From Fluviicola sp. (GTDB lineage Bacteria; Bacteroidota; Bacteroidia; Flavobacteriales_D; Crocinitomicaceae): a DNA stretch of 64,000 bases. The position numbers and the translations under genes were made by a program. The DNA lies in contig NVXV01000011.1 in the NCBI GenBank assembly GCA_002734085.1, positions 83,222-147,221 on the forward strand, given 5' to 3'. Under the pieces are notes generated by a model. It made no database searches, was not told the origin of the DNA, and saw only the letters and a program-made list of their open reading frames with translations. Below are positions 6,507 through 21,779 of this stretch, one piece after another. The stretch's first letter is position 1, and each line of letters starts with the position of its first letter.

Positions 6507-6536
6507 TCGAAAGAATTTAAGAACACTAAATACACT

Positions 6537-6932: not shown

Positions 6933-6956
6933 AAAGCACTATAACAACAAATAAAC

Positions 6957-6994
6957 AAAATAGCGCCGATAGGGCACAAGGTTTGCGCTACTTT
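6957..6994. repeat. Imperfect inverted repeat, REP-like
   Basis: TAGCGC at 6961-6966 and GCGCTA at 6985-6990 can pair, with a partly matching AT flank outside. The enclosed GATAGGGCACAAGG resembles the GATAGGGACGAC and TTAGGGCACAATA segments of the repeat at 10.68-10.74 kb. Probably a degenerate intergenic repeat. Confidence 0.4.
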
Positions 6995-7025
6995 GCTTAT
7001 TTTAGAACGTCAAAACCTCACCGTA

Positions 7026-7157
7026 CTACACAACAACCTTCTTCTTCAACGCCGCATCACTATCCTCAACCCCTTGAATAGTCAAAGGAAACATCCTATT
7101 TTGCATAATTTTCTTAATCTTTCCAATAGACTCCTTACAGTTTTGACTGCTAAAGTA
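7026..7157 (-). pseudogene. Remnant of the C-terminus of a CoxE-like VWA gene
   Basis: On the minus strand, 7038-7133 encodes 32 residues (including RMFPLTIQG and ALKKK) of which 26 match the C-terminal region of the intact VWA protein encoded at 8296-9498. It ends with a stop at 7026-7028. Upstream the similarity decays: YF and SQN survive, then a deletion, frame changes and a stop codon. No start or remaining domain is present. It is best explained as a leftover of a duplicated or displaced gene copy. The plus-strand open frame across it is a shadow. Confidence 0.75.
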
Positions 7158-7314
7158 TTAAAGTATCCTTTGAGTCCTTTTGAAGGTTTAGAAATATGTA
7201 TTATGTTTGAGCAGATATTAACCAATTTGTATCAATTGCAAGAATAATGGGGTTGGCAAGTGATTAAAAAGGTTAGATAAAAAGCAAGTTGTAAATAATT
7301 TAAAAACAAAAACT

Positions 7315-7809
7315 ATGAATAAAATTAAAGCTCTATTTTTATTACTGTTTATAAGTGCAAGTTTACTAGCTCAAGAAGTAGAAATTCCGAATGATATAAA
7401 ACTCGAAAAAGCGGAAGATTATAAAAAATCTGAAAAACTAGTTCTGAGTTCTACGCAATGGTTATTAAATACACCCGTTTCAGAAAGTCCTGAAAAAAGA
7501 AAGGAAATCAATGCATTTTTAATGAAATGGCTGAACGGAAGTCCGACCGTTTCAATAGAATTGGTTTCTGGAATTGTGCCTTTAGATTGTGGGGACTGCC
7601 TAATATCATTCATGAGTGGTTGGGCTAAGTATAGCTTAGAAAATGATTACTCAAAAAATAAAGTAGAATGTGCTATGGCTGGAGTCGAGAATGCAATTGA
7701 ATTTTATAAGAAAAATAAATCTGAATTGGGTAAAAATTCGGATATGGAAAAACTAATCAAACAAAAGAAAAAAGGAAAACTCAAAGAGTATATTGAATCA
7801 AAATACTAA
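7315..7809 (+). CDS. Exported protein of unknown function
   Basis: A 164-residue protein with a clear signal peptide (about residues 1-19, KIKALFLLLFISASLLAQ). The mature part is mainly alpha-helical and has a two-Cys motif LDCGDC near residue 98, plus another Cys in VECAMAGVENAIEFY. The C-terminal third is Lys-rich. The Cys residues could form a disulfide in the periplasm. I recognise no family. It stands alone between the VWA-gene remnant and an HMA-domain protein, in a stretch of accessory genes. Confidence 0.65.
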   Translation: MNKIKALFLLLFISASLLAQEVEIPNDIKLEKAEDYKKSEKLVLSSTQWLLNTPVSESPEKRKEINAFLMKWLNGSPTVSIELVSGIVPLDCGDCLISFMSGWAKYSLENDYSKNKVECAMAGVENAIEFYKKNKSELGKNSDMEKLIKQKKKGKLKEYIESKY

Positions 7810-7923
7810 AACAATATTTTTTCCCAAAGGAATAATTTTATACCTTAGATACATGTACAAAACTTGGTATCATATTTGACCTTATGCGAATCAAATAATG
7901 ACCATTAAAAAACAACAAAAAAA

Positions 7924-8274
7924 ATGAAAAACGTATTCTTTACTTTGCTTTTAGTATTAGTGGCACAAGCCACCTACAGTCAATCGGATAAGATTCAAAC
8001 AACAGAAATCAAAACCGAAATAGCATGTGATCATTGCACGAAATGTGAATCGTGTGATTTAAACATTTATACACATATAAAGGATAATACAAAAGGTGTT
8101 AGAAGTGTAAATATTGATGCAGAAAAAAATACGATTACGGTAAAGTACAATTCGAAAAGAACAAGTGTTTCTGAAATAGAAAAATCAATTGCGCTCGCTG
8201 GTTTCCAGGCAAACGATAAGAAACCTACTGAGGAGGCGTACAATAATTTAGACGGTTGTTGTAAAAAGAAATAG
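7924..8274 (+). CDS. Exported HMA-type heavy-metal-binding protein
   Basis: A 116-residue protein with a signal peptide (about residues 1-19, ending TYSQ) and a MerP/CopZ-like HMA fold. The fold has a Cys-rich loop CDHCTKCESC followed by the beta strands VRSVNIDAEKNTITVKYN and the helix VSEIEKSIALAGF. The canonical CxxC is expanded here to four Cys. The C-terminus ends DGCCKKK, another likely metal site and a tail common in Bacteroidota HMA proteins. It probably binds copper, zinc or a similar ion in the periplasm. A functional link to the CcoI ATPase at the left edge is possible but not shown by position. Confidence 0.8.
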   Translation: MKNVFFTLLLVLVAQATYSQSDKIQTTEIKTEIACDHCTKCESCDLNIYTHIKDNTKGVRSVNIDAEKNTITVKYNSKRTSVSEIEKSIALAGFQANDKKPTEEAYNNLDGCCKKK

Positions 8275-8295
8275 TTGAAAGGTAGGAGCTATCTA

Positions 8296-9498
8296 CTATA
8301 CTTCTTTTGAAGTATTTGCTTTCTTTTTGAGTGCGCCAACAGAGTCTTCAATCCCCTGAATGGTTAACGGAAACATTCGGTCAGACATGATTTTTTTAAT
8401 CATTCCTATTGATTCAGTGTATTTCCATTCGTTTTGAGGAACAGGATTGAGCCAAACGAAGTAGGGAAACTGTGCTTTAAATCGTTCAAGCCAGACCTTT
8501 CCCGATTCCTCATTGTAGTGCTCGACACTTCCCATACGAGAGAATATTTCATAAGGAGACATGGAAGCGTCGCCAACAAAAATGACGCGGTAATCTTCAT
8601 TGAATGTATGTAATACTTCCTCTGTCGGTGTTTTTTCATTCCACCGTCTTACATTGTTTTTCCATAAGTTCTCGTACAGGCAATTGTGAAAATAGAAAAA
8701 CTCCAAATGTTTAAATTCATGTCGCGCTGCAGAGAATAATTGAGAACACAATTCAATATGATCGTCCATAGAACCACCGATATCGAATAGCAATAAGACT
8801 TTTACCACATTCTTTTTCACGGGAACCATTTCAACTTCCAGCATTCCAGCATTTTTAGAAGTTCTTTTGATGGTTTTGTCGAGGTCAATTTCTTCAGCCC
8901 GGCCTTCACGACTTAACAAGCGAAGCTTCCGCAGCGCCATTTTCATGTTACGCGTTTCTAACTCTACATCTTGGCTTAGATCTTTGAACTCTCTTTTATC
9001 CCAAACCTTTACCGCTCTTCGGTGTCGGCTTTCATTCTGACCAATACGTATTCCTTCGGGGTTGTACCCATATGCACCGAATGGAGATGTTCCACCAGTT
9101 CCTATCCATTTGTTGCCACCTTGATGGCGTTCTTTTTGCTCTTTTAGTAGATCTTTAATTCTGTCTAATAAGTCTTCTAAATCTCCGTGCTTCTTGATTT
9201 TCTCCAATTCTTCCTTTGAGAATAGTCGCTCACCATTTTTGCGTAGCCATTCGTCGGGAATATCAACAATGTCGGATGTTTTAATCTGCTCAATGCCTTT
9301 AAAATAAGCCCCAAAAAGCATATCGAATTTATCCAAGTGCTGTTCGTTTTTAACAAGTACAGTCCGTGATAAATAATAAAAGTTATCGATATTGTATTCA
9401 GGTAAGTCTTTATCCAATGCCTCCAACAAGTCCAAATACTCCCGCAATGTGACCGGAATATCATGATTCTTCAACATTAAAAAAAAGTCTATAAACAT
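8296..9498 (-). CDS. CoxE-like VWA-domain protein
   Basis: A 400-residue cytoplasmic protein of the CoxE/VWA family. A helical N-terminal half is followed by a VWA domain with the MIDAS-type motif DIGGSMD at residues 239-245 and a second conserved segment VIFVGDASMSPYE. The first MIDAS Ser position is Gly, as in many CoxE-type members. It lies 38 bp downstream of a MoxR-type ATPase gene. Such pairs act as chaperone-like complexes that insert cofactors or remodel target enzymes; the target here is unknown. A decayed copy of its C-terminus lies 1.1 kb away. Confidence 0.85.
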   Translation of the reverse strand: MFIDFFLMLKNHDIPVTLREYLDLLEALDKDLPEYNIDNFYYLSRTVLVKNEQHLDKFDMLFGAYFKGIEQIKTSDIVDIPDEWLRKNGERLFSKEELEKIKKHGDLEDLLDRIKDLLKEQKERHQGGNKWIGTGGTSPFGAYGYNPEGIRIGQNESRHRRAVKVWDKREFKDLSQDVELETRNMKMALRKLRLLSREGRAEEIDLDKTIKRTSKNAGMLEVEMVPVKKNVVKVLLLFDIGGSMDDHIELCSQLFSAARHEFKHLEFFYFHNCLYENLWKNNVRRWNEKTPTEEVLHTFNEDYRVIFVGDASMSPYEIFSRMGSVEHYNEESGKVWLERFKAQFPYFVWLNPVPQNEWKYTESIGMIKKIMSDRMFPLTIQGIEDSVGALKKKANTSKEV

Positions 9499-9506
9499 AT
9501 TATTTT

Positions 9507-9532
9507 GAGATGTTAGACATTAGATGTTAGAC
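9507..9532. repeat. Short TAGAC/TAGAT-type repeat
   Basis: The spacer between the MoxR-type and VWA genes holds a near-periodic sequence containing TTAGACATTAGATGTTA. The same 17-mer, inverted, is at 38.23 kb just behind another gene. Confidence 0.5.
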
Positions 9533-9536
9533 TTTT

Positions 9537-10349
9537 TTATCTAACTATTTTGCTGTCGTGCTCATTTTTTAATAACGCTCCTAAATAGGGGGTAGGAGAG
9601 GCTCCGTTTTCAACTTCATTCAATTCTTCTTCAGTTATTTTGCCAACGAGTAATAACTTGATCCAATCAATGAGTTCACTTGTGGAAGGTTTCTTTTTGA
9701 TATTGCGTTGTTCACGGATTGCATAGAAAATATTCATAGCGCGTTGAACTAAACGTTGATCTAATCCTTCGTAGTGGACATCTACAATTTCTTTTAATGT
9801 TTCTCTATCTGGAAAAGTAATGTAGTGGAAGAAGCACCTTCTCAAGAAAGCATCGGGTAATTCCTTTTCGTTATTCGATGTGATAATGATGATTGGTCGA
9901 TGCTTTGCAACGATGTTTTGCCCTGTTTCATAACAGAAGAATTCCATTTTGTCCAATTCAAGTAATAAATCATTTGGAAACTCAATATCAGCTTTATCAA
10001 TTTCATCAATTAACAAGACTACTTGTTCCTCGGATTCAAATGCATCCCATAATTTACCCTTATTGATATAGTTTGAAATGTCGTCAACCTTGTCATTGCC
10101 CAATTGTGAATCTCGTAATCGCGATACAGCATCATATTCATATAGTCCTTGCTGCGCTGTAGTTGTTGATTTTATATGCCAGGTTATTAGTCGTTTGTCT
10201 AGCGCTTTTGAAATTTCATGAGCCAGAAGCGTTTTTCCCGTTCCAGGTTCTCCTTTGATTAATAATGGCTTTTCTAACGATATGGCTGCATTAACTGCTA
10301 TTGATAAATCATTTGAGGCAATATAATTGTCTGTTCCTTTAAATTGCAT
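9537..10349 (-). CDS. MoxR-family AAA ATPase
   Basis: A 270-residue AAA+ ATPase with Walker A GEPGTGKT at 33-40, Walker B LLIDEIDKAD at 112-121, a sensor-1 segment IIITSNNEKELPDAFLRRC and an Arg pair that can serve as arginine finger. The length and the lid region fit MoxR/CoxD-type ATPases, which act with VWA proteins in maturation of metalloenzymes or membrane complexes. The downstream VWA gene is the expected partner. The start at 10349 gives the normal N-terminus. A TAATTTCG element upstream on the minus strand is one base off the Bacteroidota -7 consensus. Confidence 0.9.
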   Translation of the reverse strand: MQFKGTDNYIASNDLSIAVNAAISLEKPLLIKGEPGTGKTLLAHEISKALDKRLITWHIKSTTTAQQGLYEYDAVSRLRDSQLGNDKVDDISNYINKGKLWDAFESEEQVVLLIDEIDKADIEFPNDLLLELDKMEFFCYETGQNIVAKHRPIIIITSNNEKELPDAFLRRCFFHYITFPDRETLKEIVDVHYEGLDQRLVQRAMNIFYAIREQRNIKKKPSTSELIDWIKLLLVGKITEEELNEVENGASPTPYLGALLKNEHDSKIVR

Positions 10350-10671
10350 ATTGGTATTTTTCTATCTTTTACTGCGAAATTAAGAAAATGTGTTTGCTTT
10401 TCGGTAATTGAATGAGGAATCCATTAGGAGAAGTTTTTTTGATGAATAATTTTAAAGTGATTGTATTTGTTTGGAAGACGTGGTTTCATGCGCACATTCG
10501 TACCTACGGCACTCACATTTTGGTTGTGTGTGGGGGATTAGTTGATGGCATAGCTACCATCGTTTCAAGCTGTTCGTACCTACGGTACTTTTTTGGGTAA
10601 ATTATTTAGTGATAATCGACTCTTTTTGTTTGAGTTGTAGTTCTGAAGAAATAAATCGTCTCAAAGAGTAT

Positions 10672-10786
10672 CTCAAGTCCCGATAGGGACGACAAGACCT
10701 TAACTATGGGTGCTAACCCATAGTATTAGGGCACAATACAGATACCCTTTTTGGTGTGTATTTTTGAGCCAAAAATCATGACAAAA
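10672..10786. repeat. Dispersed hairpin repeat (copy B)
   Basis: The hairpin has arms ACTATGGGT (10703-10711) and ACCCATAGT (10716-10724) and a GCTA loop. The downstream arm includes CCTTTTTGG-type sequence and then GAGCCAAAAATCATGACAAA. Copy A at 3241-3331, read on the other strand, has the same order: hairpin, CCTTTTTGG, then GACCCAAAAATCATGACAAA. The hairpins themselves differ in sequence while the arm is conserved. Confidence 0.65.
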
Positions 10787-10790
10787 AAAC

Positions 10791-10819
10791 TTGATTTCTC
10801 CCTTAGGTTTCTATATTTG
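10791..10819 (+). promoter_or_regulatory. Promoter of the ABC/ACP/ligase cluster
   Basis: TTG at 10791-10793, an 18-bp spacer and TATATTTG at 10812-10819 fit the Bacteroidota primary-sigma pattern. The first gene starts 60 bp further on. Confidence 0.65.
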
Positions 10820-10879
10820 CGACGAGATAAAATCTTTGGCATTTTATACTTAATTTTTAAGCGTTCATTTGACAGTTAA

Positions 10880-11632
10880 ATGACACATAACCAGATTCTT
10901 TATATAGAAAAACTTACAAAGCAGTACAAAGGTGTTGAAGAACCTTCATTGAAAAGTATTGATTTAACTATAAATAAGGGAGAAGTATTTGGGCTCTTGG
11001 GCCCAAATGGTGCTGGTAAAACAACATTAATATCTATTATTTGTGGAATACTTAAGCCTACTTATGGTAGAGTCCTTGTAGATGGTAAAGATATTTATAG
11101 TCACAAGGACAGTATAAAGGAGCTAATTGGTGTTGTACCACAAGATATTGCACTTTATCCGATGCTGACAGCAAAAGAAAATTTAAATTATTTTGGTGCA
11201 TTATATGGCTTAAAAGGCAAAGTGCTCGAGGACAAGATAAATTACTGGCTGGAAAGACTTGGTTTGTCACATGCTGCAAACAAGAGAATAGACAAGTTTT
11301 CAGGTGGGATGAAACGTCGAATCAATCTAATAGCAAGTGTTTTACATGATCCAAAAATTTTGTTTTTAGATGAACCAACAGTGGGGATTGATGTTCAGTC
11401 TCGGGCAGAAATATTAGAGCAGTTGAAAATTATCAATAAACAAGGAACTACAATCTTATACACTTCTCATCACCTGGATGAGGCAGAAAACCTGTGTACA
11501 AACATTGGCATTATTGATTTTGGTAATATTATTGCTAAGGGCTCTCCTTCTGAACTCGTAAAGAACACCGAAGAAGCAAGAAATTTAGAGGACGTATTTC
11601 TTCATTTAACCAAAAGAAAATTAAGAGATTAA
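10880..11632 (+). CDS. ABC transporter ATP-binding protein
   Basis: A 250-residue ABC ATPase with Walker A GPNGAGKT at 41-48, Q-loop in VVPQDIALYP, signature FSGGMKRR (about 140-147), Walker B ILFLDEP at 160-166 and switch His in YTSHHLDEAE. The closest type is the DrrA/CcmA-like ATPase of ABC-2 exporters for drugs or lipids. Its stop overlaps the ATG of the permease (TAATG), so the two are translationally coupled. As first gene of a cluster with carrier protein and ligase genes, it probably powers export of the cluster product. Confidence 0.93.
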   Translation: MTHNQILYIEKLTKQYKGVEEPSLKSIDLTINKGEVFGLLGPNGAGKTTLISIICGILKPTYGRVLVDGKDIYSHKDSIKELIGVVPQDIALYPMLTAKENLNYFGALYGLKGKVLEDKINYWLERLGLSHAANKRIDKFSGGMKRRINLIASVLHDPKILFLDEPTVGIDVQSRAEILEQLKIINKQGTTILYTSHHLDEAENLCTNIGIIDFGNIIAKGSPSELVKNTEEARNLEDVFLHLTKRKLRD

Positions 11633-12906
11633 TGTATAAGTTATTAGCAACCATAAAAAAGGAGACGACCATTCTTTTGAGAGACCAATTTGGTTTAGCT
11701 ATTCTATTTCTTATGCCTATTGTTTTAATTATTGTGATGACCTTCGTTCAAGATGCAGCGTTCAGCAGCATTAATGAAAAAGGAGTAAAAATTGTTTTAG
11801 TTGATAATGATCAAGATTCTTTAGGTGTTGCGATTAAAAGAGGTCTAAAGAGTACAGATCTAGTGGAGCTAAGTGATTCTATCGATGGCAAACTTGCTAC
11901 TGAAGAATCTGCCTTAAGCGCAATTAAAAATGGAGCCTTTTTATTGGGTGTGGTTATTCCTAAAAATGCAACCAATAATATTCGGCATAGTGTAGATGGA
12001 TTGATTCAATCAACATTGGGGAATGAAGTCTCTAATCAGTCATTATCAGACTCGGTTGAAATTAAAATAATTATAGATCCAATTGCTAAAAACACAATTA
12101 TTGAAGGAGTACTTAGTAATTTAAGAGAGTTTATTTCTGGGATTAAAACAAAAGTGATGTTCGAAACTTTTTCAGAACAAATTGCTGAAGTTATTCCCGA
12201 TCAGGAAAATAAACCACAGAACACATATGAAAAATCTCAGATAATAACTTATAAAAAGCAATTTGCTTCTTCATTTGAGCACCACAAAGTGCCAACAGCT
12301 GTCCAACATAATGTTCCTGCCTGGACTATTTTTGCCATGTTTTTTATAGTTGTATCTCTTGTTGCAAACATAATGAACGAGAAGAAGGAGGGAAGTGTTT
12401 TTCGATTGAAAACTGTACCTAGCTCTTACCTAACGTTAATTATGGGGAAAGTAACTGTATTTGTTGTCATTTGCACTTTACAATTCTTCTCTATGATGTT
12501 GATAGGCATTTATGTTCTACCAATGATAGGATTAGACGCTTTAGACTTAGGTGGAAACATGTTAGGAGTTACCTTACTTGCTATATCTACATCCTTTGCT
12601 GCAACTGGTTTTGGGGTTTTAGTAGGAACATTTGCTAAAAGTCAACAGCAAGGCGCAATTTTAGGGTCATTATTAGTACTTTTGTTATCTGCTTTTGGAG
12701 GTATTTGGGTGCCTACATACGTAATGCCTGGATCAATGCGTATGATTAGCGAATTATCACCTATGAATTGGTCTCTTTCAGGGTTTTATGACTTGTTTTT
12801 AAAAGGCGCAGATACAATTGATATTTTATGGAATTGTTTGAAATTGATGTTGTTTTTTATTCTCACTACTGGAATGGCTATTAGGATGAATGTATTAAAA
12901 CGATAA
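11632..12906 (+). CDS. ABC-2 type transporter permease
   Basis: A 424-residue membrane protein with one N-terminal transmembrane helix (about residues 21-42), a large extracytoplasmic domain (about 45-220) and a C-terminal block of five or six helices starting at VPAWTIFAMFFIVVSLVAN. This is the layout of ABC2_membrane_3/YhgE-like exporter permeases. It pairs with the ATPase encoded just upstream; one permease gene implies a homodimeric transporter. The next gene, an acyl carrier protein, follows after 10 bp. Export of the pathway product or self-resistance is the likely role, inferred from context. Confidence 0.9.
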   Translation: MYKLLATIKKETTILLRDQFGLAILFLMPIVLIIVMTFVQDAAFSSINEKGVKIVLVDNDQDSLGVAIKRGLKSTDLVELSDSIDGKLATEESALSAIKNGAFLLGVVIPKNATNNIRHSVDGLIQSTLGNEVSNQSLSDSVEIKIIIDPIAKNTIIEGVLSNLREFISGIKTKVMFETFSEQIAEVIPDQENKPQNTYEKSQIITYKKQFASSFEHHKVPTAVQHNVPAWTIFAMFFIVVSLVANIMNEKKEGSVFRLKTVPSSYLTLIMGKVTVFVVICTLQFFSMMLIGIYVLPMIGLDALDLGGNMLGVTLLAISTSFAATGFGVLVGTFAKSQQQGAILGSLLVLLLSAFGGIWVPTYVMPGSMRMISELSPMNWSLSGFYDLFLKGADTIDILWNCLKLMLFFILTTGMAIRMNVLKR

Positions 12907-12916
12907 TATTGTAAAA

Positions 12917-13174
12917 ATGAGTAATACAGAGGTAGAGGAATCATTAATAAAGTTTTTAGAAAATAATATACTTGGAGAAGGAGTAAACATTCATTCAAAA
13001 AGTTCTTTAACTGAAATTGGTATAGATTCATACTCTATTGTTGAGATACTCTTGTTTATCGAACGAAAATATGGATTCGTAATTCCTGATGAACACCTAA
13101 GACCAGAAAATTTTAAAAATGTTGATGCCATAGCGCAAATAGTCGTGAAGGTTTCGAAGCATACTGATCAATGA
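12917..13174 (+). CDS. Acyl/peptidyl carrier protein
   Basis: An 85-residue free-standing carrier protein. The 4'-phosphopantetheine site is Ser38 in GIDSYSIVE, the variant of the usual GxDS motif, followed by the helix II segment ILLFIERKYGFVIPDE. Length and fold pattern are normal for a discrete ACP/PCP. It differs from the fatty-acid AcpP motif DSLD, and a primary ACP is expected elsewhere in the genome, so this is probably a dedicated carrier for the cluster. Its end overlaps the next gene by 4 bp. It would be loaded by the ligase encoded at 15676-17112 and activated by an unlinked phosphopantetheinyl transferase; both are inferences. Confidence 0.9.
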   Translation: MSNTEVEESLIKFLENNILGEGVNIHSKSSLTEIGIDSYSIVEILLFIERKYGFVIPDEHLRPENFKNVDAIAQIVVKVSKHTDQ

Positions 13175-14430
13175 TTAAGCTTCCTAAAAAAATGGAGCTC
13201 AATGGAGCGGACTGTTTTCACCTATTATTGGAGAACTTCAATAAATTAAATACGAGCAGTAATAATATTGTTCGGATGGTTATAACTTTCAAAGATCCGT
13301 CTAAGCTGGATGAATTAATTCAATCAATAGAGAATTCAGAAGTTGTCCAATGGATTTCACAACTTCGTTTAGAGCGTAAATCACTTAAAAGTCCTATCTG
13401 GATTCATGATGAGCAGAAAGAGAAACTTAAAGTAGTAGAGCATTCAGATTCAACCAGTTTCAGTGAAGTGAAAAATATTCCATTTGATTTTGAAGTAGAT
13501 CAATTAATCCGGTTTGATATTTTAAATAATGGTAATGATTTTAAACTTCTATTTTCATGGCATCACATTATAATGGACGGGAGAGGAGCAGGGTTGTTGA
13601 TTCAATCCATAACCAATAACAATTTGACTTTAGATAGTTCATCAATCTACAGTCAACCAAAAGATAGCAAATCTTTTAAGTCAAGATTCTCTAGAATGTT
13701 TGACGTTAAGCATTTTGTTGAAGATATGCTTAAAAATAGTATGGAATTACCTGAATTATTGAACCCAACGGCTCACGGATTTCATCATGACGTAGTTTCA
13801 TTTAACGAAGAAGAATCAAAAGTAATTGAGCAGAATGCCTTACAAGCTGGCTGTAAATTTGGTATTAATATGTTTCAGTTAGCCTGCTGTTTTCTTACTT
13901 ATAAAGAAGTGATGTCAGCCAATAAAAAAATTTGGGTACCAGTTCCTTATGATGGAAGAAAAAGGGGGGGCAAAGGTCCCGTTATTGGAAACCATATTTC
14001 ATTTTTATTTTACCAAATCGATCCGAATAGGTTTTCCCACCCAAAAGAAGTGGTTACTTCTCTCAATCAACAAATGAATAATCAGTTGAAAAGAGATATT
14101 CCCGCCAAGTATAACGATATGTTGTCCTTAATGCGAAAATTCCCGTTGTGGTTTAATAAATGGGCTACAACACGCTCTGCAAAAGGTCGAATCTCAAGCT
14201 TTTTATATTCTTCTGCCGGGCAAGGTCATTGGGACACTAGTCGAATTGATGACTCATTTGAAGACGTGGTTTTAATACCTCCATTCACTAATGATCCTGG
14301 TATTACATTCACATTTAGTAGGTTTGATCACTCAATTAAACTCAATATAGTTGCATGTAAAAAGAAATTTGATGATAAAAAATTATCTTTGATTCAAGAT
14401 ACTATACGAGAATATTTACTTGGATCATAA
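13171..14430 (+). CDS. Free-standing condensation-domain-like acyltransferase
   Basis: A 419-residue protein with the condensation-superfamily catalytic motif HHxxxDG (HHIIMDG at 131-137) in the middle of its N-terminal lobe. In the C-terminal lobe are WVPVPYDGRKRGGKG and GNHISFLFYQ, which match the usual bridge region. It is the size of one C domain, without A or T domains. Relatives join carrier-bound acyl or aminoacyl groups to an amine or alcohol. The start overlaps the end of the ACP gene (ATGA), which argues for translational coupling and joint action. The acceptor and donor cannot be told from sequence. Confidence 0.85.
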   Translation: MIKLPKKMELNGADCFHLLLENFNKLNTSSNNIVRMVITFKDPSKLDELIQSIENSEVVQWISQLRLERKSLKSPIWIHDEQKEKLKVVEHSDSTSFSEVKNIPFDFEVDQLIRFDILNNGNDFKLLFSWHHIIMDGRGAGLLIQSITNNNLTLDSSSIYSQPKDSKSFKSRFSRMFDVKHFVEDMLKNSMELPELLNPTAHGFHHDVVSFNEEESKVIEQNALQAGCKFGINMFQLACCFLTYKEVMSANKKIWVPVPYDGRKRGGKGPVIGNHISFLFYQIDPNRFSHPKEVVTSLNQQMNNQLKRDIPAKYNDMLSLMRKFPLWFNKWATTRSAKGRISSFLYSSAGQGHWDTSRIDDSFEDVVLIPPFTNDPGITFTFSRFDHSIKLNIVACKKKFDDKKLSLIQDTIREYLLGS

Positions 14431-14432
14431 AA

Positions 14433-15635
14433 TTGGAAGAGCAAACAGCTGATATATTAATAATCGGAGGGGGCGTAGCAGGAATAGCGGCGGCTGTAGG
14501 TGCGTCTGAAAATAACAGTGTTTTGCTCATTGACGCCAATGGTTATCTTGGAGGAAATGCAACAGTTTCTGAGGTAGGAACAATTTGTGGGCTTTATCAC
14601 TTTTCTTACGGAGATAAATCAACATATATTTCTGATGGATTCATGAAAGAATTTGCAGAAAGAATTCAATCACATTCTAATTCCAAGCCGATTAAAAATA
14701 AATTTGGACTTCATTTTCTCCCGTATGACACAGAAGTTTTTAAAAAAGTAGCTCTTGGTATTTTAAAAGAAAACAATATATCCTATGTTTTAAATTCTCG
14801 CGTGAAAGAAGTTAACCAAGAAGGGGGAACTATAAAATCTATTGTGGTTAATTGTGGTAAAGATTTGAAGAAAATCAATTGTTCAGCGATTGTTGATTGT
14901 TCTGGTGTAAGTATTATTAGTGAATTGGCAAATCAACCATTATTGAATTCTGGGTTGTATCAATCAGCAGCAATAGTATTTGAAATCAGTAATATTGATA
15001 TATCGAGTGAGTTTGGAGTTAATATACTATTGGCTAAGCATGTGAATATGTTTAATTCAAATCATAAAAAGAAAAAGTCATTTCATAGCACTCATGTAAT
15101 TCCAGGTTCGTTTAAAAATAATTCAGCTAAATTTAAGATGGGGATTCCTGTTCAAGTTACTGATGATAAGGAGAATCATGATTTATTAAAAAGAATAGGG
15201 AGGGAGTTGGTTCAGGAGTTTTTTGAAATTTTGAAGAAAGAAATAATAGCATTCAAGGATTCAACTTTAGACCACATTGCAGATGATATTGGTATTCGCG
15301 TACAAAAAAGACCCATAGGGAAATATGTTCTTGAAGAAGCTGATATTATAGAATGTAGAAAGTTTCCTAATGCAATTGCAAAAAGTGCTTGGCCAATAGA
15401 GGAATGGAATGAAGACCTAAAAGTGTCAATTAGTCAATCTAAAGAAGATGACTGGTATGAAATTCCAAAAGAAGCATTGTTATCAAAAAAAATAAATAAT
15501 TTATTCTTTGGAGGGAAGAATATTTCAGCTACAGATAGAGCTATTGGTAGCGCTCGTGTAATGGGTGTTTGCTTGCAAACAGGGTTTTCGGCTGGTGAAA
15601 TAGCTCTAGAATTTACTAAGAATTCCTTTAAATAA
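14433..15635 (+). CDS. FAD-dependent oxidoreductase (FAD_oxidored type)
   Basis: A 400-residue flavoprotein. An N-terminal Rossmann motif GGGVAG (12-17) is followed by a conserved segment GGNATVSEVGTICGLYHF typical of the FAD_oxidored family, and near the C-terminus NLFFGGKNISATDRAIGSARVMG closes the FAD-binding fold. Such enzymes oxidise C-C or C-N bonds; in this context it may dehydrogenate or oxidise a carrier-bound intermediate. The start is a TTG two bases after the preceding stop; no ATG is near, and the Rossmann motif needs this upstream start. Confidence 0.85.
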   Translation: MEEQTADILIIGGGVAGIAAAVGASENNSVLLIDANGYLGGNATVSEVGTICGLYHFSYGDKSTYISDGFMKEFAERIQSHSNSKPIKNKFGLHFLPYDTEVFKKVALGILKENNISYVLNSRVKEVNQEGGTIKSIVVNCGKDLKKINCSAIVDCSGVSIISELANQPLLNSGLYQSAAIVFEISNIDISSEFGVNILLAKHVNMFNSNHKKKKSFHSTHVIPGSFKNNSAKFKMGIPVQVTDDKENHDLLKRIGRELVQEFFEILKKEIIAFKDSTLDHIADDIGIRVQKRPIGKYVLEEADIIECRKFPNAIAKSAWPIEEWNEDLKVSISQSKEDDWYEIPKEALLSKKINNLFFGGKNISATDRAIGSARVMGVCLQTGFSAGEIALEFTKNSFK

Positions 15636-15675
15636 ATTTATATTCGCAAAATTAAAGAATAATTCTAATCTCAAA

Positions 15676-17112
15676 ATGACCGAGTTATCTGCTTTTAACA
15701 TTCTTAAAGATGCTGCAAGTAAATGGCCTGAATCGATTGCAATATACGATGATGAGAAGATGACGTTTGAGGAGCTTTTTAGGGCTTCATTAGAGTTGTC
15801 TGCAAAATTGAAAAATGAAGGCATTGGCCCCAAAATGTCAGTGGGTGTTATGTCAAAAAACAGTCGACAGTTCATTATTGGTATTTTTGCTGTAATTGGT
15901 ACTGGCGCTACAGTGATGCCTATGTCTCACCAACTAAAAGGTGTTGAGATTGAAGAAATAATTTCTGAAGGTGGATTACACGGTATAATGGATGAATTAT
16001 CCGGGGTAAAGCCGTTAGATGAAATGCACTATATAACTACAGAAGATTCAAAATTTAGGTTTGGATTAATTGAAAGAAATAGAGATAAACCCTTCGCTAC
16101 GCACGTAGATAATCCTGCATTTATGCGATTTACGAGTGGTACTACTGGAAAGTCAAAAGGGGTTATTATTTCACATAAATCAGCCGTAGAAAGAATTGAT
16201 GCCGCAAATAAGCTACTAAATTTAGGTCCAGATGATACCGTGGTTTGGGTATTGCCAATTGCTTACCATTTTGTGGTTTCAATTTTACTCTATGTTAAAT
16301 ATGGAGCTTCCATAGCGATAGTAAAGGACTTTATGCCTCAAAATATTGTTTCCATTACTGAAAAATACAATGGAACGTTGCTCTATGCTTCTCCTATGCA
16401 AATACGACTGTTGTCGTCAATAAAGGAAGAAGCACACTTAAAGAGCCTTAAAATGGTTGTTTCAACATCAACAGGTATATCTGTCGATGTCTGTGAACAG
16501 TTTTATAAAAGATTTAATATTCCTGTGAGTCAAGCTTATGGAATAATTGAAATTGGTCTTCCCATTATCAATCATACAAAGTCTAAAGAAGCGCCAGAAG
16601 CTGTTGGTTATCCATTACCCGATTATGACGTTCAAATATTAGATGATGATAATAATCCAATTTCTGATGGAGAAGTAGGACACTTAGCTATAAAAGGACC
16701 TGGGATGTTTGATGCTTATTTAAACCCACCAGTCCTTAAAGAAAAAATTCTCAAAAATGGATATTTTTTAACTGCTGATTTTGCTAGTAAATCACCTGAT
16801 GGATTGATAACAGTAGAAGGTAGAATGAAATCAGTCATTAATGTTTCTGGCAATAAGGTATTTCCCGAAGAGGTTGAAAGTTTACTCGAAACATTTCGGG
16901 GAGTTAGGTTGGCTAGGATTTCTGGCATTCCTCATCCATTAATGGGGCAAATAGTTCAAGCTGAAATAGTTTTAGAGGATGGTACTAATCTAGATATAGA
17001 AGAGGTGTTGACTTTTTGTCGCAAACGATTGTCAACATTTAAAATCCCTCAAAAAGTAGTCATTGTGGATTCTTTGCCACTTACAAAAACAGGGAAAATT
17101 AAAAGAAACTAA
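15676..17112 (+). CDS. Adenylate-forming acyl/amino-acid ligase
   Basis: A 478-residue ANL-superfamily enzyme. The P-loop TSGTTGKSKG is at 153-162, the A5-like motif AYGIIEIG near 295, the hinge GRMKSVINVSG near 395, and the catalytic Lys is K474 in TKTGKIK just before the C-terminus. The usual A7 TGD is TADF here. It activates a carboxylic acid as an adenylate and probably loads it on the ACP of the cluster. The substrate cannot be read with confidence. It starts 40 bp after the oxidoreductase gene, and a TATATTCG element in this gap could be an extra weak promoter. It is the last gene of the cluster. Confidence 0.88.
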   Translation: MTELSAFNILKDAASKWPESIAIYDDEKMTFEELFRASLELSAKLKNEGIGPKMSVGVMSKNSRQFIIGIFAVIGTGATVMPMSHQLKGVEIEEIISEGGLHGIMDELSGVKPLDEMHYITTEDSKFRFGLIERNRDKPFATHVDNPAFMRFTSGTTGKSKGVIISHKSAVERIDAANKLLNLGPDDTVVWVLPIAYHFVVSILLYVKYGASIAIVKDFMPQNIVSITEKYNGTLLYASPMQIRLLSSIKEEAHLKSLKMVVSTSTGISVDVCEQFYKRFNIPVSQAYGIIEIGLPIINHTKSKEAPEAVGYPLPDYDVQILDDDNNPISDGEVGHLAIKGPGMFDAYLNPPVLKEKILKNGYFLTADFASKSPDGLITVEGRMKSVINVSGNKVFPEEVESLLETFRGVRLARISGIPHPLMGQIVQAEIVLEDGTNLDIEEVLTFCRKRLSTFKIPQKVVIVDSLPLTKTGKIKRN

Positions 17113-17122
17113 ATTATAGAAT

Positions 17123-17151
17123 AAAAAAAGCCGCCCATAAATGAACGGCTT
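17123..17151 (-). terminator. Terminator of the mscS gene
   Basis: On the minus strand the stem AAGCCG/CGGCTT (17146-17151 with 17128-17133) is followed by a run of seven T. It lies 20 bp behind the stop of the channel gene and between two convergent genes. Confidence 0.75.
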
Positions 17152-17170
17152 AAATCGATATAATATAGAA

Positions 17171-18016
17171 TTACTTCTCCATGTGGACATCAACTTGAGG
17201 GAAGGGAATACTTAACCCTTCTATTTCATTGAACTTTTCATACACTTTTTCATTCATGTAATAGTGAATATCCCAATAATCTTCTTTCATAGACCAAACT
17301 TTAACAGTTAAATTAACTGATGAATCCGCTAACGCACCTAATTTCACTACTGGCTCAGGATCCTGTAAAACTTTTGGATGACTATTGATAATCTCCATTA
17401 CTGTTTCTTTAGCAAGTTTTAAGTCTTCTCCGTAACCAAAGCCAAATGTGAAGTCAACTCTTCTTTTATCTTGTCTTGTGAAGTTAACGATGTTTCCATT
17501 AGCTAACTGACCGTTTGGAATGATGATGGTTTTATTATCTGTTGTTAGTAAAATGGTATGAAAAATCTGAATTTCAGAAACCGTTCCCATTTCACCTTGC
17601 GCTTCAATAAACTCATCGACTTTTATTGGCTTGAATATTAGTAGCATTACGCCTCCCGCAAGATTAGAAAGTGTACCAGAAAAAGCCATGCCAATTGCCA
17701 ATCCAGCAGCACCTAATAGCGCAATGAACGAAGTCATTTCAATACCAAGTTGTGAAAAGGCAGTAATTATAGTTAACACCTTTACCAATCCGCCGACTAA
17801 ACCACGCATAAACGATATTAATCCTTTGTCAGATTCTCTTTTTTCAAGGATACGTTGTGTCATCTTGCCAAAAAACTTCGCTAATCGAAATCCAACAATC
17901 AAAATGACAGCTGCAACTAATATACTTACTCCAATATCGATTCCTACATCGTATAATTCCGATTGAGTATAGCCAAATATGATATCCGGTTCATTTTTTA
18001 TCTCTTCTTTCATCAA
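17171..18016 (-). CDS. mscS: Small-conductance mechanosensitive channel (MscS family)
   Basis: A 281-residue inner-membrane channel of normal MscS length. It has three N-terminal membrane segments; the pore helix is the Gly/Ala-rich segment GAAGLAIGMAFSGTLSNLAGG, continuing into the conserved beta domain (IFKPIKVDEFIEAQGEMGTV) and the C-terminal alpha/beta domain. It opens on membrane tension and releases solutes during osmotic downshock. It is convergent with the biosynthetic cluster, divergent from ydcF, and monocistronic, with its own promoter and terminator. Confidence 0.95.
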   Translation of the reverse strand: MMKEEIKNEPDIIFGYTQSELYDVGIDIGVSILVAAVILIVGFRLAKFFGKMTQRILEKRESDKGLISFMRGLVGGLVKVLTIITAFSQLGIEMTSFIALLGAAGLAIGMAFSGTLSNLAGGVMLLIFKPIKVDEFIEAQGEMGTVSEIQIFHTILLTTDNKTIIIPNGQLANGNIVNFTRQDKRRVDFTFGFGYGEDLKLAKETVMEIINSHPKVLQDPEPVVKLGALADSSVNLTVKVWSMKEDYWDIHYYMNEKVYEKFNEIEGLSIPFPQVDVHMEK

Positions 18017-18043
18017 TTAAATTTTTAAATTTGCTAATACTTA

Positions 18044-18072
18044 CAAATATATAATCATAACGAGTCAAACAA
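18044..18072 (-). promoter_or_regulatory. Promoter of mscS
   Basis: On the minus strand TTG (18072-18070), an 18-bp spacer and TATATTTG (18051-18044) fit the Bacteroidota pattern. It lies about 28 bp before the ATG. Confidence 0.6.
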
Positions 18073-18087
18073 GTGGCTTTTGAATAA

Positions 18088-18855
18088 ATGTTTTTTTTAC
18101 TTTCTAAAATAACGTATTTCTTTATTGCTCCATTCACATGGTTGATGTTAACTATGGGAATTTGGATTTTTCACAAAAAATCTATTTGGAAAAAACGTGC
18201 AAAATGGATTGCACTAACAATTTTACTTTTTTATAGTAACACTTTTATATTTAAAGAGTTTATTCGACTTTGGGAGATACCTGCAGTTTCAATAGAAAAC
18301 GTGTCAAAACATGAAGTGGGAATTGTACTTGGTGGAATGTTTGAATATGATAACGATACTGAAAGACTAAGTATAAGACGAGGTGGAGACCGTATTTGGC
18401 AGGCAATTAATTTATATAAAGATGAAAAAATTGAAAAAATCCTAATTTCAGGTAACCATGGCTATATAACTGATAGAGGTCTTCATGAGTCAGAACAATT
18501 GAAAGAAGTCTTAGTTAAATGGGGGATACCAGAGCAAGATGTCATTATTGAAACTAAATCAAAAAATACTTATCAAAATGCAGCTGAAACTGTTGCTGTA
18601 CTAAGAAAATCTTATCCACATTTTTCTTCTTTTCTTCTAATTACCTCTGCCAAACATATGAGACGAGCAAAAGCTTGTTTTGAAAATCAAGGAGTGAAGG
18701 TTACACCGTTTTCAACTGATCCATATGTTGGTGGAAGTAGATCATATCGCTGGGATGAATTCATTGTTCCAGATGTAGATAACTTTTCTAATTGGTTTGA
18801 TTTGAACAAAGAAATGGTTGGGTATGTTGCATACGCCATTGTAGGATATTTGTGA
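18088..18855 (+). CDS. YdcF/ElyC-like DUF218 membrane protein
   Basis: A 255-residue protein with two N-terminal hydrophobic segments and a DUF218 domain (EVGIVLGGMFEYDN; then RIWQAINLYKDEKIEKILISG; then ENTYQNA-like KSKNTYQNAAET). The size and the two membrane segments resemble ElyC/YdcF proteins, linked in E. coli to envelope and peptidoglycan homeostasis. The exact reaction is unknown. Its stop overlaps the start region of alkB, so the two are probably co-transcribed, although no functional link is obvious. Confidence 0.85.
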   Translation: MFFLLSKITYFFIAPFTWLMLTMGIWIFHKKSIWKKRAKWIALTILLFYSNTFIFKEFIRLWEIPAVSIENVSKHEVGIVLGGMFEYDNDTERLSIRRGGDRIWQAINLYKDEKIEKILISGNHGYITDRGLHESEQLKEVLVKWGIPEQDVIIETKSKNTYQNAAETVAVLRKSYPHFSSFLLITSAKHMRRAKACFENQGVKVTPFSTDPYVGGSRSYRWDEFIVPDVDNFSNWFDLNKEMVGYVAYAIVGYL

Positions 18856-18857
18856 TC

Positions 18858-19436
18858 ATGATAAAACAAGACATAGAAAACGGTTGGTATATCTGGGAGC
18901 CTAATTTTTATAGTCCAAAAGAATCTAAGTCATTGTTTCAAATTTTATATGATGAGTTGCCTTGGGAAGGAGGAGAAATTAATTTATTCGGTAAAACATA
19001 TCAAATCCCTAGAAAACAGGTGATGTTTGCAGATAATGGTTTAAATTATGGGTATTCTGGAAAGAAGCTTAATGTGATTAATTGGAATGCTGTTGTTAAA
19101 GACATTAAGAATCAAATAGAGTTGGAGTCTAATTACGATTTTAATGCATGTTTAGCAAACTTGTATAGAGATGGTGATGACAGTAATGGCTGGCATTCAG
19201 ATAACGAGAAAGAGCTCGGTAAAAATCCAATTATTGGTTCTATAAGCTTAGGGGCAACACGTGTTTTTAAATTAAAGCATCTAAAAACAAATACTAGACT
19301 TGAATTCGAATTAACTTCTGGAAGTTTATTAATTATGGGAGGGGAGATGCAGCATTTTTGGAAACATCAAATACCAAAAACTAAATCTTCGGTTGAACCA
19401 AGAATTAATTTAACGTTTAGAAAACTTATTAAATAA
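18858..19436 (+). CDS. alkB: AlkB-type alpha-ketoglutarate-dependent dioxygenase
   Basis: A 192-residue Fe(II)/2-oxoglutarate dioxygenase that reverses alkylation of DNA or RNA bases. The iron ligands are H113 and D115 in GWHSDNE and a distal His, H170, in WKHQIPK. The 2-oxoglutarate-binding Arg lies in PRINLTFR (R182). The compact size and the PRKQVMFADNGLNYGYSG segment resemble the AlkB2/ALKBH2-like branch common in Bacteroidota. The ATG at 18858 is preferred over the GTG at 18852, which would overlap the preceding stop more deeply. Confidence 0.93.
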   Translation: MIKQDIENGWYIWEPNFYSPKESKSLFQILYDELPWEGGEINLFGKTYQIPRKQVMFADNGLNYGYSGKKLNVINWNAVVKDIKNQIELESNYDFNACLANLYRDGDDSNGWHSDNEKELGKNPIIGSISLGATRVFKLKHLKTNTRLEFELTSGSLLIMGGEMQHFWKHQIPKTKSSVEPRINLTFRKLIK

Positions 19437-19457
19437 AGGGCTTTAACTACAAAAAGA

Positions 19458-20120
19458 TTAACGAATTATAACCTTACGTGTAATTTTCTGGCTGTTCTCA
19501 GTAAAAGTAATAAAGTAAACCCCCTTCAACATTGACGAAGTATTCACTTTTAGATTACCATTTTCATTTAACTTTCCAGCTTTTATTTCTTTGCCAAGTA
19601 AATTTACTAACTTATAGTCTGTATTAGCTGAACCGCCTGTTATTTTAAAATATTCAATTGCTGGGTTTGGGTAAATCGATACTTTATCTAGAGAATTATT
19701 ATCAAGATCACTGGTTAGAGCACTTCCTCTAAAAGTGATATATTCCGTTTGATTTTCGTTGGGAGAATCGTTTACTTTTAATGTTACGAATCCTTCTCCT
19801 TCTTGTCCGTTCGGGTAAAAGTGCATATTGAGATAGCCACCATTTCCAGGTAAACTCCATTGAACGCTTTCAGTTCCGATAGGGTAGCAAATATCTTGGT
19901 CACACACAGAAAACTCCCAATTAGAAGGTAGATTTACAGAATCTACTTCCCAATACATTGAATTACTTGCTCCATTAGTATTGCTTAAAGGAATATCACC
20001 ATAAAAGTCAGACTCTGTAGCCACTCCATATAGCGTGGTGTCATTTGTTGCAGGTTCAAATTCTTGCGAGATTGCACTGAAACCAACAGATATAAGTGTT
20101 AAAAGTAGAATTTTCTTCAT
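19458..20120 (-). CDS. T9SS-secreted protein with C-terminal sorting domain
   Basis: A 220-residue protein with an N-terminal signal peptide (KKILLLTLISVGFSAISQ) and a T9SS type A sorting domain starting at VSIYPNPAIEYFKI and ending in the typical basic tail ITRKVIIR. The middle region (about residues 20-130) is beta-rich and contains two Cys in CDQDICYPIG, perhaps a disulfide. It is expected to cross the outer membrane through the type IX system and be surface-bound or released. The function of the short middle domain is not recognised. Confidence 0.85.
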   Translation of the reverse strand: MKKILLLTLISVGFSAISQEFEPATNDTTLYGVATESDFYGDIPLSNTNGASNSMYWEVDSVNLPSNWEFSVCDQDICYPIGTESVQWSLPGNGGYLNMHFYPNGQEGEGFVTLKVNDSPNENQTEYITFRGSALTSDLDNNSLDKVSIYPNPAIEYFKITGGSANTDYKLVNLLGKEIKAGKLNENGNLKVNTSSMLKGVYFITFTENSQKITRKVIIR

Positions 20121-20221
20121 GGTTATATTTTTAATTAATTGTAAAGTTACAAAAAATATTTTTAATTCTTATGTTAATCTTTGACATGTTTAGCCAAAAA
20201 AAACGTATTATATGAATTTTT

Positions 20222-20716
20222 TTAAACTAAGTATGCTTCTTTAATACCATCAAAATTGACTTCAATACGATCTTGAAGCGTGGTGGAAAGAGTGAGCCCA
20301 ACATAATCACATCGAATAGGGTAGCGACGGTGTTTTCTGTCTACCAAAGCAACAGTTTTAATACGTTTTGTAGGGTATTCAAGTAATTTGATTAGTGCGT
20401 ATTGCATTGTCTTACCTGAATTTATCACATCATCAATTAGAATAATAGTTTGATTTTCAATATCTTTTAGATCGATTGAAGCTTTAATTTCTTTGGAAAG
20501 TGGTTGTTGCTTGTTTACAGTAATTTCTGCGAATACAATCTTTTGATCAGTGATTTCTTTTAAAATATTGACTAATTCATTAGCTAAGGCTGAGCCATTG
20601 CCTTTAACACCAAAAAGGAACAAGGTTTCAGCTTCAAAATTATTTTCTAATATTTCGTAAGCGATTCGTTTTATCTTTTGCTCTATTTGGGTCTCGTTCA
20701 GTACAATTGTGTTCAT
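20222..20716 (-). CDS. PyrR-like phosphoribosyltransferase
   Basis: A 164-residue type I PRTase. The PRPP-binding loop is TIILIDDVINSGKT (about 90-103), and the PyrR-like segment VALVDRKHRRYPIRCDYVG with a C-terminal STTLQDRIEV matches the PyrR/uracil PRTase group. It may salvage uracil or regulate pyrimidine genes, but no pyr operon or attenuator is adjacent. It begins 1 bp after mltG, as the last gene of the dapF-mltG operon. A standard PRTase fold is certain; the exact base specificity is not. Confidence 0.8.
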   Translation of the reverse strand: MNTIVLNETQIEQKIKRIAYEILENNFEAETLFLFGVKGNGSALANELVNILKEITDQKIVFAEITVNKQQPLSKEIKASIDLKDIENQTIILIDDVINSGKTMQYALIKLLEYPTKRIKTVALVDRKHRRYPIRCDYVGLTLSTTLQDRIEVNFDGIKEAYLV

Positions 20717-20717
20717 T

Positions 20718-21779
20718 CTATCTGTTGTTTAACCAGTTTTGAAACTTCTTTGCATTTCTGTTATGTTCAGCATTTGTTCTAGCGAAGTAATGTAGACCAT
20801 TGCCGTCTGGCTTGGCACACATATAAAAGTAATCATTATCTTCTGCATTGAGCACAGCGTCCACAACTTCTGCGGGAGGTACACAGATTGGTCCTGGAGG
20901 TAAACCAGGATATTTATAGGTGTTATAGGGACAATCAATAGCTCTGTGTTCGTAAGTCAAACGTTGCACTCCATCCAGTTCATCGCCCCAGCAATAGCGA
21001 AAAGTTGGATCTGACTGTAATAACCAATTATCCTCTATTCGATTTAAATATAATCCGGCAATGGTTTTCCATTCCTCAGGAAATTTATCTTGTTCTTTAT
21101 ACACTATTGAAGCCAGAGTTACAGCATCAGATTGACTTTTTAGACCTTGGTTTTTAAGTTTTTTAAGACGACTTGGCGTCCAGAAAGTTTTAAACTGTTT
21201 CGCCATTTTTTTAACAAACGTAGTTTCATCCGTATCCCAGTAGAAATTATATGTATTTGGAAGGAATAATGCAATAATCCTTTCTTGAGAAAAGCCGTAT
21301 TTATTCAAAATACTATCCGAAAGAATATAGTTTACAAAATGGGCGCTATCCATTTCAATTTGTCTTGAAACTTTACTAGCTATATCCTTAATGTCTTGAC
21401 AGTTGTTGAAAGTTACTTGAACCTCTACTTCTTTATTTCCATTCCCTAATCGATTTAATGTAAAGCCGTTTATTAAGGTTTTTATGTTGGTGTTTTTTGA
21501 AATATTGTATTTTCCAGCACCTATTTTATCATCTGTTATATTCTTGTATTCAGCAACCGATAAAAAGGTTTCTTTATCACCAACAATATTCTCATCAATT
21601 AATTGCTGCACTAGCTCATCCAATGTAGTTCCTGTCTTAATATAAAAGGACTTTTCAGAGGTGTTAATCGTGTTTTTATTTCCATCAAAATAGGCATTCA
21701 TACCATCACAAGAAGTGAAAAGCGAAAATATTAAAGTCGTTGAAATAATGAGTACTCGCGTTAATTTCTTGCCTAACAT
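20718..21779 (-). CDS. mltG: Endolytic peptidoglycan transglycosylase MltG
   Basis: A YceG-family protein of about 353 residues. It has an N-terminal hydrophobic segment with a lipobox-like FTSC, then a LysM-like subdomain (GTTLDELVQQLIDENIV). The catalytic region contains VTLASIVYKEQ with the conserved Glu, LQSDPTFRYC and the motif YNTYKYPGLPPGPICVP near the C-terminus. MltG cleaves nascent glycan strands and sets their length. I moved the start from 21815 to the ATG at 21779. The longer form overlaps the upstream gene and would put extra residues before the signal. Confidence 0.92.
   Translation of the reverse strand: MLGKKLTRVLIISTTLIFSLFTSCDGMNAYFDGNKNTINTSEKSFYIKTGTTLDELVQQLIDENIVGDKETFLSVAEYKNITDDKIGAGKYNISKNTNIKTLINGFTLNRLGNGNKEVEVQVTFNNCQDIKDIASKVSRQIEMDSAHFVNYILSDSILNKYGFSQERIIALFLPNTYNFYWDTDETTFVKKMAKQFKTFWTPSRLKKLKNQGLKSQSDAVTLASIVYKEQDKFPEEWKTIAGLYLNRIEDNWLLQSDPTFRYCWGDELDGVQRLTYEHRAIDCPYNTYKYPGLPPGPICVPPAEVVDAVLNAEDNDYFYMCAKPDGNGLHYFARTNAEHNRNAKKFQNWLNNR

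Follow-up and report, generated by a model that had tools for sequence, protein, structure and literature searches.

The six genes at positions 10880-17112 of a 64,000-nucleotide stretch of Fluviicola sp. DNA (contig NVXV01000011.1, positions 83,222 to 147,221; hereafter the window) encode an ABC-2 exporter ATPase and its permease, a stand-alone acyl carrier protein (ACP), a stand-alone condensation-fold enzyme (here called C), a flavin adenine dinucleotide (FAD)-dependent oxidoreductase, and an adenylate-forming ligase. We tentatively read them as one version of an undescribed, widespread acyl-transfer module tied to polyene pigments, a reading in which our confidence falls slightly short of even. 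The link to pigments is well supported; we infer the substrate, the acceptor, and the product. Since the four-gene core (ACP, C, FAD enzyme, and ligase) extends beyond Bacteroidota and often has carotenoid or aryl-polyene-type genes as neighbors, it is probably an accessory module linked to pigments and not a pathway complete in itself, and it probably helps to decorate or place yellow-orange protective pigments. The gene content and order, the conservation of catalytic residues, and the pigment neighborhood in relatives were observed directly.

Conserved gene order and host range

The six open reading frames follow one another in tandem on the + strand, and Pfam families were assigned above the cut-off for 6/6. 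The ATPase gene (DrrA-like, 250 residues, 10880..11632; PF00005, ABC_tran, 125.5 bits) overlaps that of the permease (424 residues, 11632..12906; PF12698, ABC2_membrane_3, 108.5 bits) by 1 base at 11632, and 10 bases separate the permease from the ACP gene (85 residues with phosphopantetheine Ser38, 12917..13174; PF00550, PP-binding, 22.6 bits with a cut-off of 20.8). The ACP gene overlaps by 4 bases (13171-13174) the gene for C, a stand-alone condensation-fold HxxxD acyltransferase (419 residues, 13171..14430; PF00668, 46.5 bits with a cut-off of 30.6), which is followed after 2 bases by the FAD enzyme (400 residues, TTG start, 14433..15635; PF12831, FAD_oxidored, 221.8 bits with a cut-off of 27) and, after a further gap of 40 bases, by the acyl/aryl acid ligase (478 residues, 15676..17112; PF00501, AMP-binding, 200.4 bits, and PF13193, AMP-binding_C, 50.1 bits). 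A sequence-only reading of the window had described six same-strand genes with overlaps or short gaps, Ser38 in a GIDSYS motif, and an HHIIMDG motif, and all of these are present.

A first scan of the contigs of named genomes with the C protein returned no relative, whereas a scan with the ligase alignment found 131 relatives, from which 80 loci were kept. Gene order was then counted with four family profiles in six frames over 82 loci (the window, locus L014, and the 80 kept loci; L046 belongs to genome G025 and L077 to genome G068) at E <= 1e-5, with at least 350 bits for the ligase, at least 150 bits for the FAD enzyme, and the genes within 9 kb. The order ACP-C-FAD-ligase that the sequence-only reading had noted for the core is conserved: with intervening genes allowed, such as a radical-SAM gene that in L088 separates C from FAD, it occurs on one strand in 55/82 loci. 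The hosts of this ordered quartet are Bacteroidota, Nitrosomonas, methanotrophs, Verrucomicrobia, and Deltaproteobacteria. Hosts named in the ligase scan include Taishania, Terrimonas, Ferruginibacter, Crocinitomicaceae, Nitrosomonas, Methyloglobulus, Methylovulum, Verrucomicrobia, and Desulfobacterales. C-FAD-ligase without the ACP was found in 5/82 loci and FAD-ligase alone in 6/82; in the latter six, except for L034, the contig stops within 3.8 kb on the upstream side. ACP-FAD-ligase was found in 4/82, three of which have C elsewhere in the locus. The order is absent in 12/82, comprising two loci cut at a contig end (L047 and L099), one with reordered parts (L109), and nine with the ligase alone. 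In Taishania pollutisoli (G040) the ABC, permease, ACP, and C genes lie at one place and the FAD and ligase genes at another on one 757-kb contig. Because the order recurs in 55 of the 82 loci, we take the cassette to be more than a chance assembly.

The solitary ligases fall in part into shared settings. Those of L094, L105, and L111 have a common arrangement, consisting of type II secretion genes in L105, and those of L056, L061, and L076 have another, which in L076 includes a 4HBT thioesterase and a tRNA (guanine-1)-methyltransferase.

Matches to the C protein were found in 7/149 relatives, counting the window's own genome and G041, where they lie within very long frames (1492 and 5082 residues) that look like nonribosomal peptide synthetases (NRPSs); in 16/399 genomes of the order; and in 1/395 genomes of a phylum sample, namely the window's own. 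Ten of the 16 carriers in the order have ACP, FAD, or ligase genes together with C on the contig, and one contig of 3.8 kb was too short to judge. A diverged C gene with a sulfotransferase-like gene, accompanied by ABC/permease genes and/or DUF5686, was seen in L015, L124, L126, L127, and L130. We also considered C as a core enzyme of flexirubin synthesis and set this aside, as C is absent from 394/395 genomes of the phylum sample, a sample unscored for flexirubin; 268 flexirubin clusters in 252 strains are reported for the phylum (PMC9248904).

A midpoint-rooted ligase tree, drawn without support values, separates a Bacteroidota side from a gammaproteobacterial and Verrucomicrobia side. The Nitrosomonas ligases of L058 and L059 fall within the Bacteroidota side, a position that suggests transfer.

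Pigment genes beside the module

Carotenoid neighbors were counted in 44 Bacteroidota loci with ligase and FAD genes, the window among them, that remained after 7 loci without an FAD gene had been dropped from the 51 listed. Carotenoid genes were defined as BLAST clusters, labeled after scanning one to a few representatives of each, and crtD by an identity of 45% or more to two CrtD references; the crtZ label was given by eye to a cluster whose representative had no Pfam match, and no count rests on crtZ alone. In 27/44 loci the distance between crtD and the cassette is -72 to 1449 bp. Nine of these have crtD upstream on the strand of the cassette, 15 have it upstream on the other strand, and 3 have it downstream on the cassette strand; in one lineage it stands 2 bp downstream of the ligase. 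The identity of crtD was checked in three representatives, which scored 530-629 bits against NF042421 (cut-off 500). Three more loci carry other carotenoid genes (phytoene synthase, lycopene cyclase, or Caroten_synth), bringing the total to 30/44. Terrimonas ferruginea (L051) is one host in which carotenoid genes accompany the module. The ligase search was blind to pigment genes, i.e., the loci were not picked by crtD, and by our rough estimate a one- or two-copy gene would come this close by chance in about 1% of loci or fewer. No crtD was present in the loci of the solitary ligases L043, L049, L056, L061, and L076.

Outside Bacteroidota the neighbors are of another kind. Among 27 listed loci of other or unstated phyla, 16 have the ligase, FAD, and C genes by cluster, and 12 of these 16 (17/27 overall) carry two or more families of aryl-polyene-type markers. 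As several of these markers (FabG, GT2, acyltransferase, and MMPL) are generic, the case that we consider firm is L106, in which ApeP-like and ApeI-like dehydratases, a ketosynthase (KS), FabG, and a ligase-ApeI fusion stand alongside the module. In the methanotrophs the module lies within aryl-polyene-type clusters, between halogenase-like and KS genes; Methylovulum psychrotolerans (L089) is one carrier with aryl-polyene-type genes. In G090 (L014) three other genes separate the ligase from KS, FabG, and aromatic amino acid lyase genes downstream of it. The module might instead supply the polyene starter or head group ahead of chain building, as its place inside the methanotroph clusters would allow; we think this quite improbable, as the L106 cluster that carries the module also encodes a second ligase, in fusion with an ApeI-like domain, and carotenoids require no such starter. 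With both kinds of neighbor taken together, the quartet may represent general polyene tailoring, with the same acyl or aryl cap put on carotenoids and aryl polyenes and with ABC-2 or MMPL proteins placing the product in the outer membrane, a proposal that we regard as possible but on balance unlikely.

Two other families recur near the module. A tryptophan-halogenase-like FAD gene lies upstream, directly or one gene away, in the gamma- or betaproteobacterial loci L059, L073, L078, L079, L081, L084, L089, L090, and L106; in the Bacteroidota loci L060 and L083 it is on the opposite strand. A B12-binding radical-SAM family stands beside or within the module in L088, L092, L095, L096, L100, L103, and L108, mostly from Verrucomicrobia and Deltaproteobacteria. 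The L103 member resembles TIGR04072, with 343.6 bits against a cut-off of 360. A link to ladderanes was considered and rejected: radical SAM and phytoene-desaturase-like genes are mentioned for ladderane clusters (PMC2649909), and the available part of that source shows nothing like the quartet.

The carotenoid block beside the module in L036, L037, L039, L040, L041, and L050 also contains a family of MerR regulators that, as scanned in L036, have B12-binding domains. Regulators of this kind are presumably light-sensing, and light control through them is possible. In several Chitinophagaceae-type loci the MerR/B12 regulator and an ECF-type sigma factor lie near the carotenoid genes.

Catalytic parts and proposed reactions

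In adenylation (A) domains of NRPSs, Asp235 anchors the amino group of the alpha-amino acid. The module ligase has His198 where it aligns with the Asp of the first A domain of LgrA, and this His is invariant in 45/45 family members, so we infer a substrate that is not an amino acid and is hydrophobic or aromatic. An aminoacyl product is disfavored on the same ground. The sequence-only reading had held that the set could load, oxidize, condense, and export a small acyl or aminoacyl product, and of the two units the acyl one remains plausible. It had also described a ligase that ends at its catalytic Lys: Lys474, which we take to be the catalytic (A10) Lys, is invariant in 45/45, and the protein ends 4 residues later. 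In the ACP, Asp37-Ser38 of the GIDSYS motif is invariant in 35/35 family members.

The C enzyme of the window carries HHIIMDG, and in the family alignment HxxxD (His132 and Asp136) and Gly139 are invariant (50/50). The full HHxxxDG pattern is not kept, the first His being present in 19/50 and Gly137 in 11/50; with HxxxD alone invariant, C can be classed broadly as an HxxxD acyltransferase. The Pfam Condensation profile (PF00668) matches 18/50 members at E <= 0.01, and a search of NCBIfam with the window enzyme gave no match at E <= 0.001. These results do not support the plain NRPS framing of the sequence-only reading. Its statement that no multidomain NRPS is present agrees with the whole genome, where the cassette C gene is the one PF00668 match at E <= 0.001, which indicates that no modular NRPS stands behind the cassette.

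The predicted model of C (pLDDT 87.7) had its best fold match in AzeD (8s6l; VIA Z 30.4, rmsd 3.6, 398 residues aligned), followed by the CDA C1 domain (VIA Z 28.5, rmsd 3.5, 380 aligned), PapA5 (27.0, 3.5, and 353), the starter C domain of RzmA (26.8, 3.7, and 374), and the plant enzyme HCT (24.4, 3.6, and 360). The values for C domains span 24-28.5 and that for PapA5 is similar, so the fold comparison does not separate a C domain from an acyltransferase that works without a carrier. This bears on another account, in which C is a wax-ester or PapA-like acyltransferase acting on membrane lipids and the ABC-2 pair flips the lipid. The conservation of HxxxD alone, the VIA Z of 27.0 for PapA5, and weak matches to PapA_C, WS_DGAT_C, and Transferase (1/50 members each, E about 0.004-0.005) are in keeping with it; the Condensation profile matches far more members (18/50), and C domains and AzeD give similar or higher VIA Z values, which leaves this account improbable in our view. 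Fusion proteins were considered as hints to function and discarded: in the 980-residue frame of L109 the ligase is preceded by a stretch without a Pfam match, and the C frame of L071 has no Pfam match.

The FAD enzyme keeps the GxGxxG glycines (G12, G14, and G17) in 47/47 family members. The best fold match of its predicted model (pLDDT 93.9) was a geranylgeranyl-reductase (GGR)-like protein (VIA Z 21.7, rmsd 3.9, 289 residues aligned) in an unspecific search in which GGR-like proteins, Thi4, flavocytochrome c, MnmG, and halogenases all lie at Z 18-22. A sequence search of the PDB showed no full-length relative and phmmer found none; the matches of a profile search were limited to about 35-50 N-terminal, FAD-binding residues.

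The ABC family occurs in 31/86 clustered loci, all Bacteroidota by name or kinship, and in 30 of the 31 its genes sit with the module genes, the exception being L034, where the other strand encodes an ATPase of 23% identity. In related Bacteroidota loci the ATPase orthologues lie directly upstream of the permease. An MMPL-type gene is present in 13/27 loci of other or unstated phyla. The pair was also compared with DrrAB drug efflux, which was rejected, the score for drrA (TIGR01188) being 258.7 bits against a cut-off of 312.45 and that for drrB 19.7 against 223.05.

Each reaction, the acid, the acceptor, and the direction of transport in the following scheme are proposed. The acid adenylated by the ligase would be a hydrophobic or aromatic carboxylic acid other than an alpha-amino acid, and the enzyme would load it onto the phosphopantetheine arm at Ser38 of the ACP. 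There the FAD enzyme may oxidize (or reduce) the bound acyl group, after which the HxxxD condensation-fold enzyme would pass it to a hydroxyl (or amine) of the acceptor and the ABC-2 pair would export the product from the cytoplasmic membrane. The likeliest acceptor would be a polyene pigment or a lipid made with it: in Bacteroidota perhaps a hydroxylated CrtD-type carotenoid, and in Proteobacteria and Verrucomicrobia an aryl polyene. Precedents exist: the acyl-ACP synthetase ApeH loads an aromatic acid on ACP without CoA for aryl polyenes (PMC8253772), and Rhodothermus and Salinibacter contain acylated carotenoids (carotenoid glucosides) that arise by another route (PMC5822342).

Counter-evidence, rival accounts, and known systems

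Several observations weigh against the pigment-linked reading. In the window strain itself (assembly of 4.03 Mb in 36 contigs) the cassette is on C23, near neither the carotenoid genes (crtD at C31:67646-69097, 581 bits, and crtI-, crtB-, and IPP-isomerase-like genes on C25) nor the flexirubin-type locus on C34, and a pigment role there is proposed by extension from relatives. Ten scanned genes flanking the cassette are unrelated to it; their families are PAPS reductase-type, HMA, VWA/CoxE, AAA, MscS, DUF218, 2OG-Fe(II) oxygenase, phosphoribosyltransferase, YceG, and DapF. No carotenoid gene was found in 14/44 Bacteroidota loci, the window included, several of them at contig ends. Five of the 16 C genes in the order lie beside a sulfotransferase-like gene with no ACP, FAD, or ligase gene in the stretch retrieved, and such C genes standing without an ACP suggest that the enzyme may not always need one. 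The two classes of pigment beside the module are chemically different and fit a common acceptor poorly. CrtD above the cut-off was found in 37/38 Bacteroidota genomes with the module or a part of it (486.8 bits in the remaining one), in a scan of 54 entries that left out L071, L079, L083, and L091 and included G079, which has no ACP, FAD, or ligase gene near C, and L053, in which no C was found. CrtD is also above the cut-off in 86/149 relatives, a count that ignores descent, so that co-occurrence at the level of genomes is weak evidence and adjacency the stronger.

That adjacency could itself stem from shared light or stress regulation, and the main rival builds on this: the module would make a small acyl compound of its own, photoprotective or antioxidant, that is exported and co-regulated with the pigments but unattached to them. 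Such a compound under common control would account for neighbors of two unrelated pigment classes and for the stand-alone cassette in the window, and the MerR/B12-type gene and sigma factor near carotenoid genes in several loci are in line with it. In most of the 27 loci with crtD, however, that gene is directly beside the cassette, closer than shared regulation needs, and we consider this account unlikely, though a serious one. The view of the sequence-only reading, a self-contained pathway with an exported small acyl or aminoacyl product and no connection to pigments, has in its favor that six parts are enough on paper and that the scanned flanks in the window are unrelated. It leaves unexplained the carotenoid genes in 30/44 Bacteroidota loci and the aryl-polyene-type markers in 12/16 others, and its aminoacyl form conflicts with a ligase that lacks Asp235; its probability appears low to us. 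As the explanations overlap, a lipid acceptor occurring in two of them, their probabilities need not sum to one.

Upstream of the cassette, a weak candidate promoter, TTG-N18-TATATTTG, lies at 10791..10819 (+), 60 bases before the first ATG. We take this pattern to be a Bacteroidota-type promoter; with 3 matches in the window against 2.02 expected by chance, the candidate alone is not significant. Short palindromic repeats stand at 10500-10513, 10576-10589, and 10676-10690, two of the form GTACCTACGGYACT and one GTCCCTATCGGGACT; these patterns have 0.00 and 0.02 expected matches, but they were derived from these same copies, and the genome contains a single copy of a 23-base form. The repeats are perhaps, we assume, of the repetitive extragenic palindromic (REP) type. 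A terminator-like hairpin at 17128-17151 suits an opposite-strand gene because its T tail is on the - strand (4 such sites in the region, 3.0 expected). A search of window positions 5000-24000 against Rfam gave no match, and no tRNA was found in the window. The flexirubin-type locus of the same genome (G000:C34:1-11000, L122) holds an aromatic amino acid lyase, KS, FabG, ACP, and a halogenase-like gene.

No description of the ACP/C/FAD/ligase set was found in the open-access literature, most subscription papers lying outside the search, in agreement with the sequence-only reading, which knew of no described pathway with exactly this set. If our reading is correct, it names a missing step in the pigment chemistry of bacteria of several phyla, gives a role to generically named genes, and connects two unrelated classes of pigment by a single set of enzymes; the module, having no KS or NRPS, may also be one that standard cluster rules miss.

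The aryl polyene, xanthomonadin, and flexirubin clusters resemble the module in having a carrier protein and an AMP ligase that loads an acid, and in many loci of Proteobacteria and Verrucomicrobia the module has MMPL, LolA, GT2, KS, or FabG genes close by. Unlike those clusters, the module has no KS (no ketosynthase, ketoreductase, or dehydratase was found among the six cassette genes or the ten flanking genes scanned), it adds condensation-fold and FAD_oxidored enzymes, and in L106 its ligase is additional to the ligase-ApeI fusion. In the CrtD-type carotenoid clusters of Bacteroidota, crtD and sometimes phytoene synthase, crtI, lycopene cyclase, or Caroten_synth (PF04240) adjoin the cassette; their products are presumably of the saproxanthin, myxol, or flexixanthin type. 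The available portions of descriptions of carotenoid clusters show no ACP/C/FAD/ligase set, and in Rhodothermus the acylation of carotenoid glucosides is assigned to CruC/CruD (PMC5822342). With the condensation, adenylation, and carrier domains of NRPSs the module shares folds and core catalytic residues, but it consists of six separate genes, lacks Asp235, and has HHxxxDG reduced to HxxxD. AzeD of Pseudomonas aeruginosa, the best fold match of C, has only 12% identity to it, and its entry title says dehydratase, so no function carries over to the C enzyme. Compared with these systems, the module combines enzymes of known fold in an arrangement that is strongly conserved and undescribed, and its link to two classes of pigment is unexpected.

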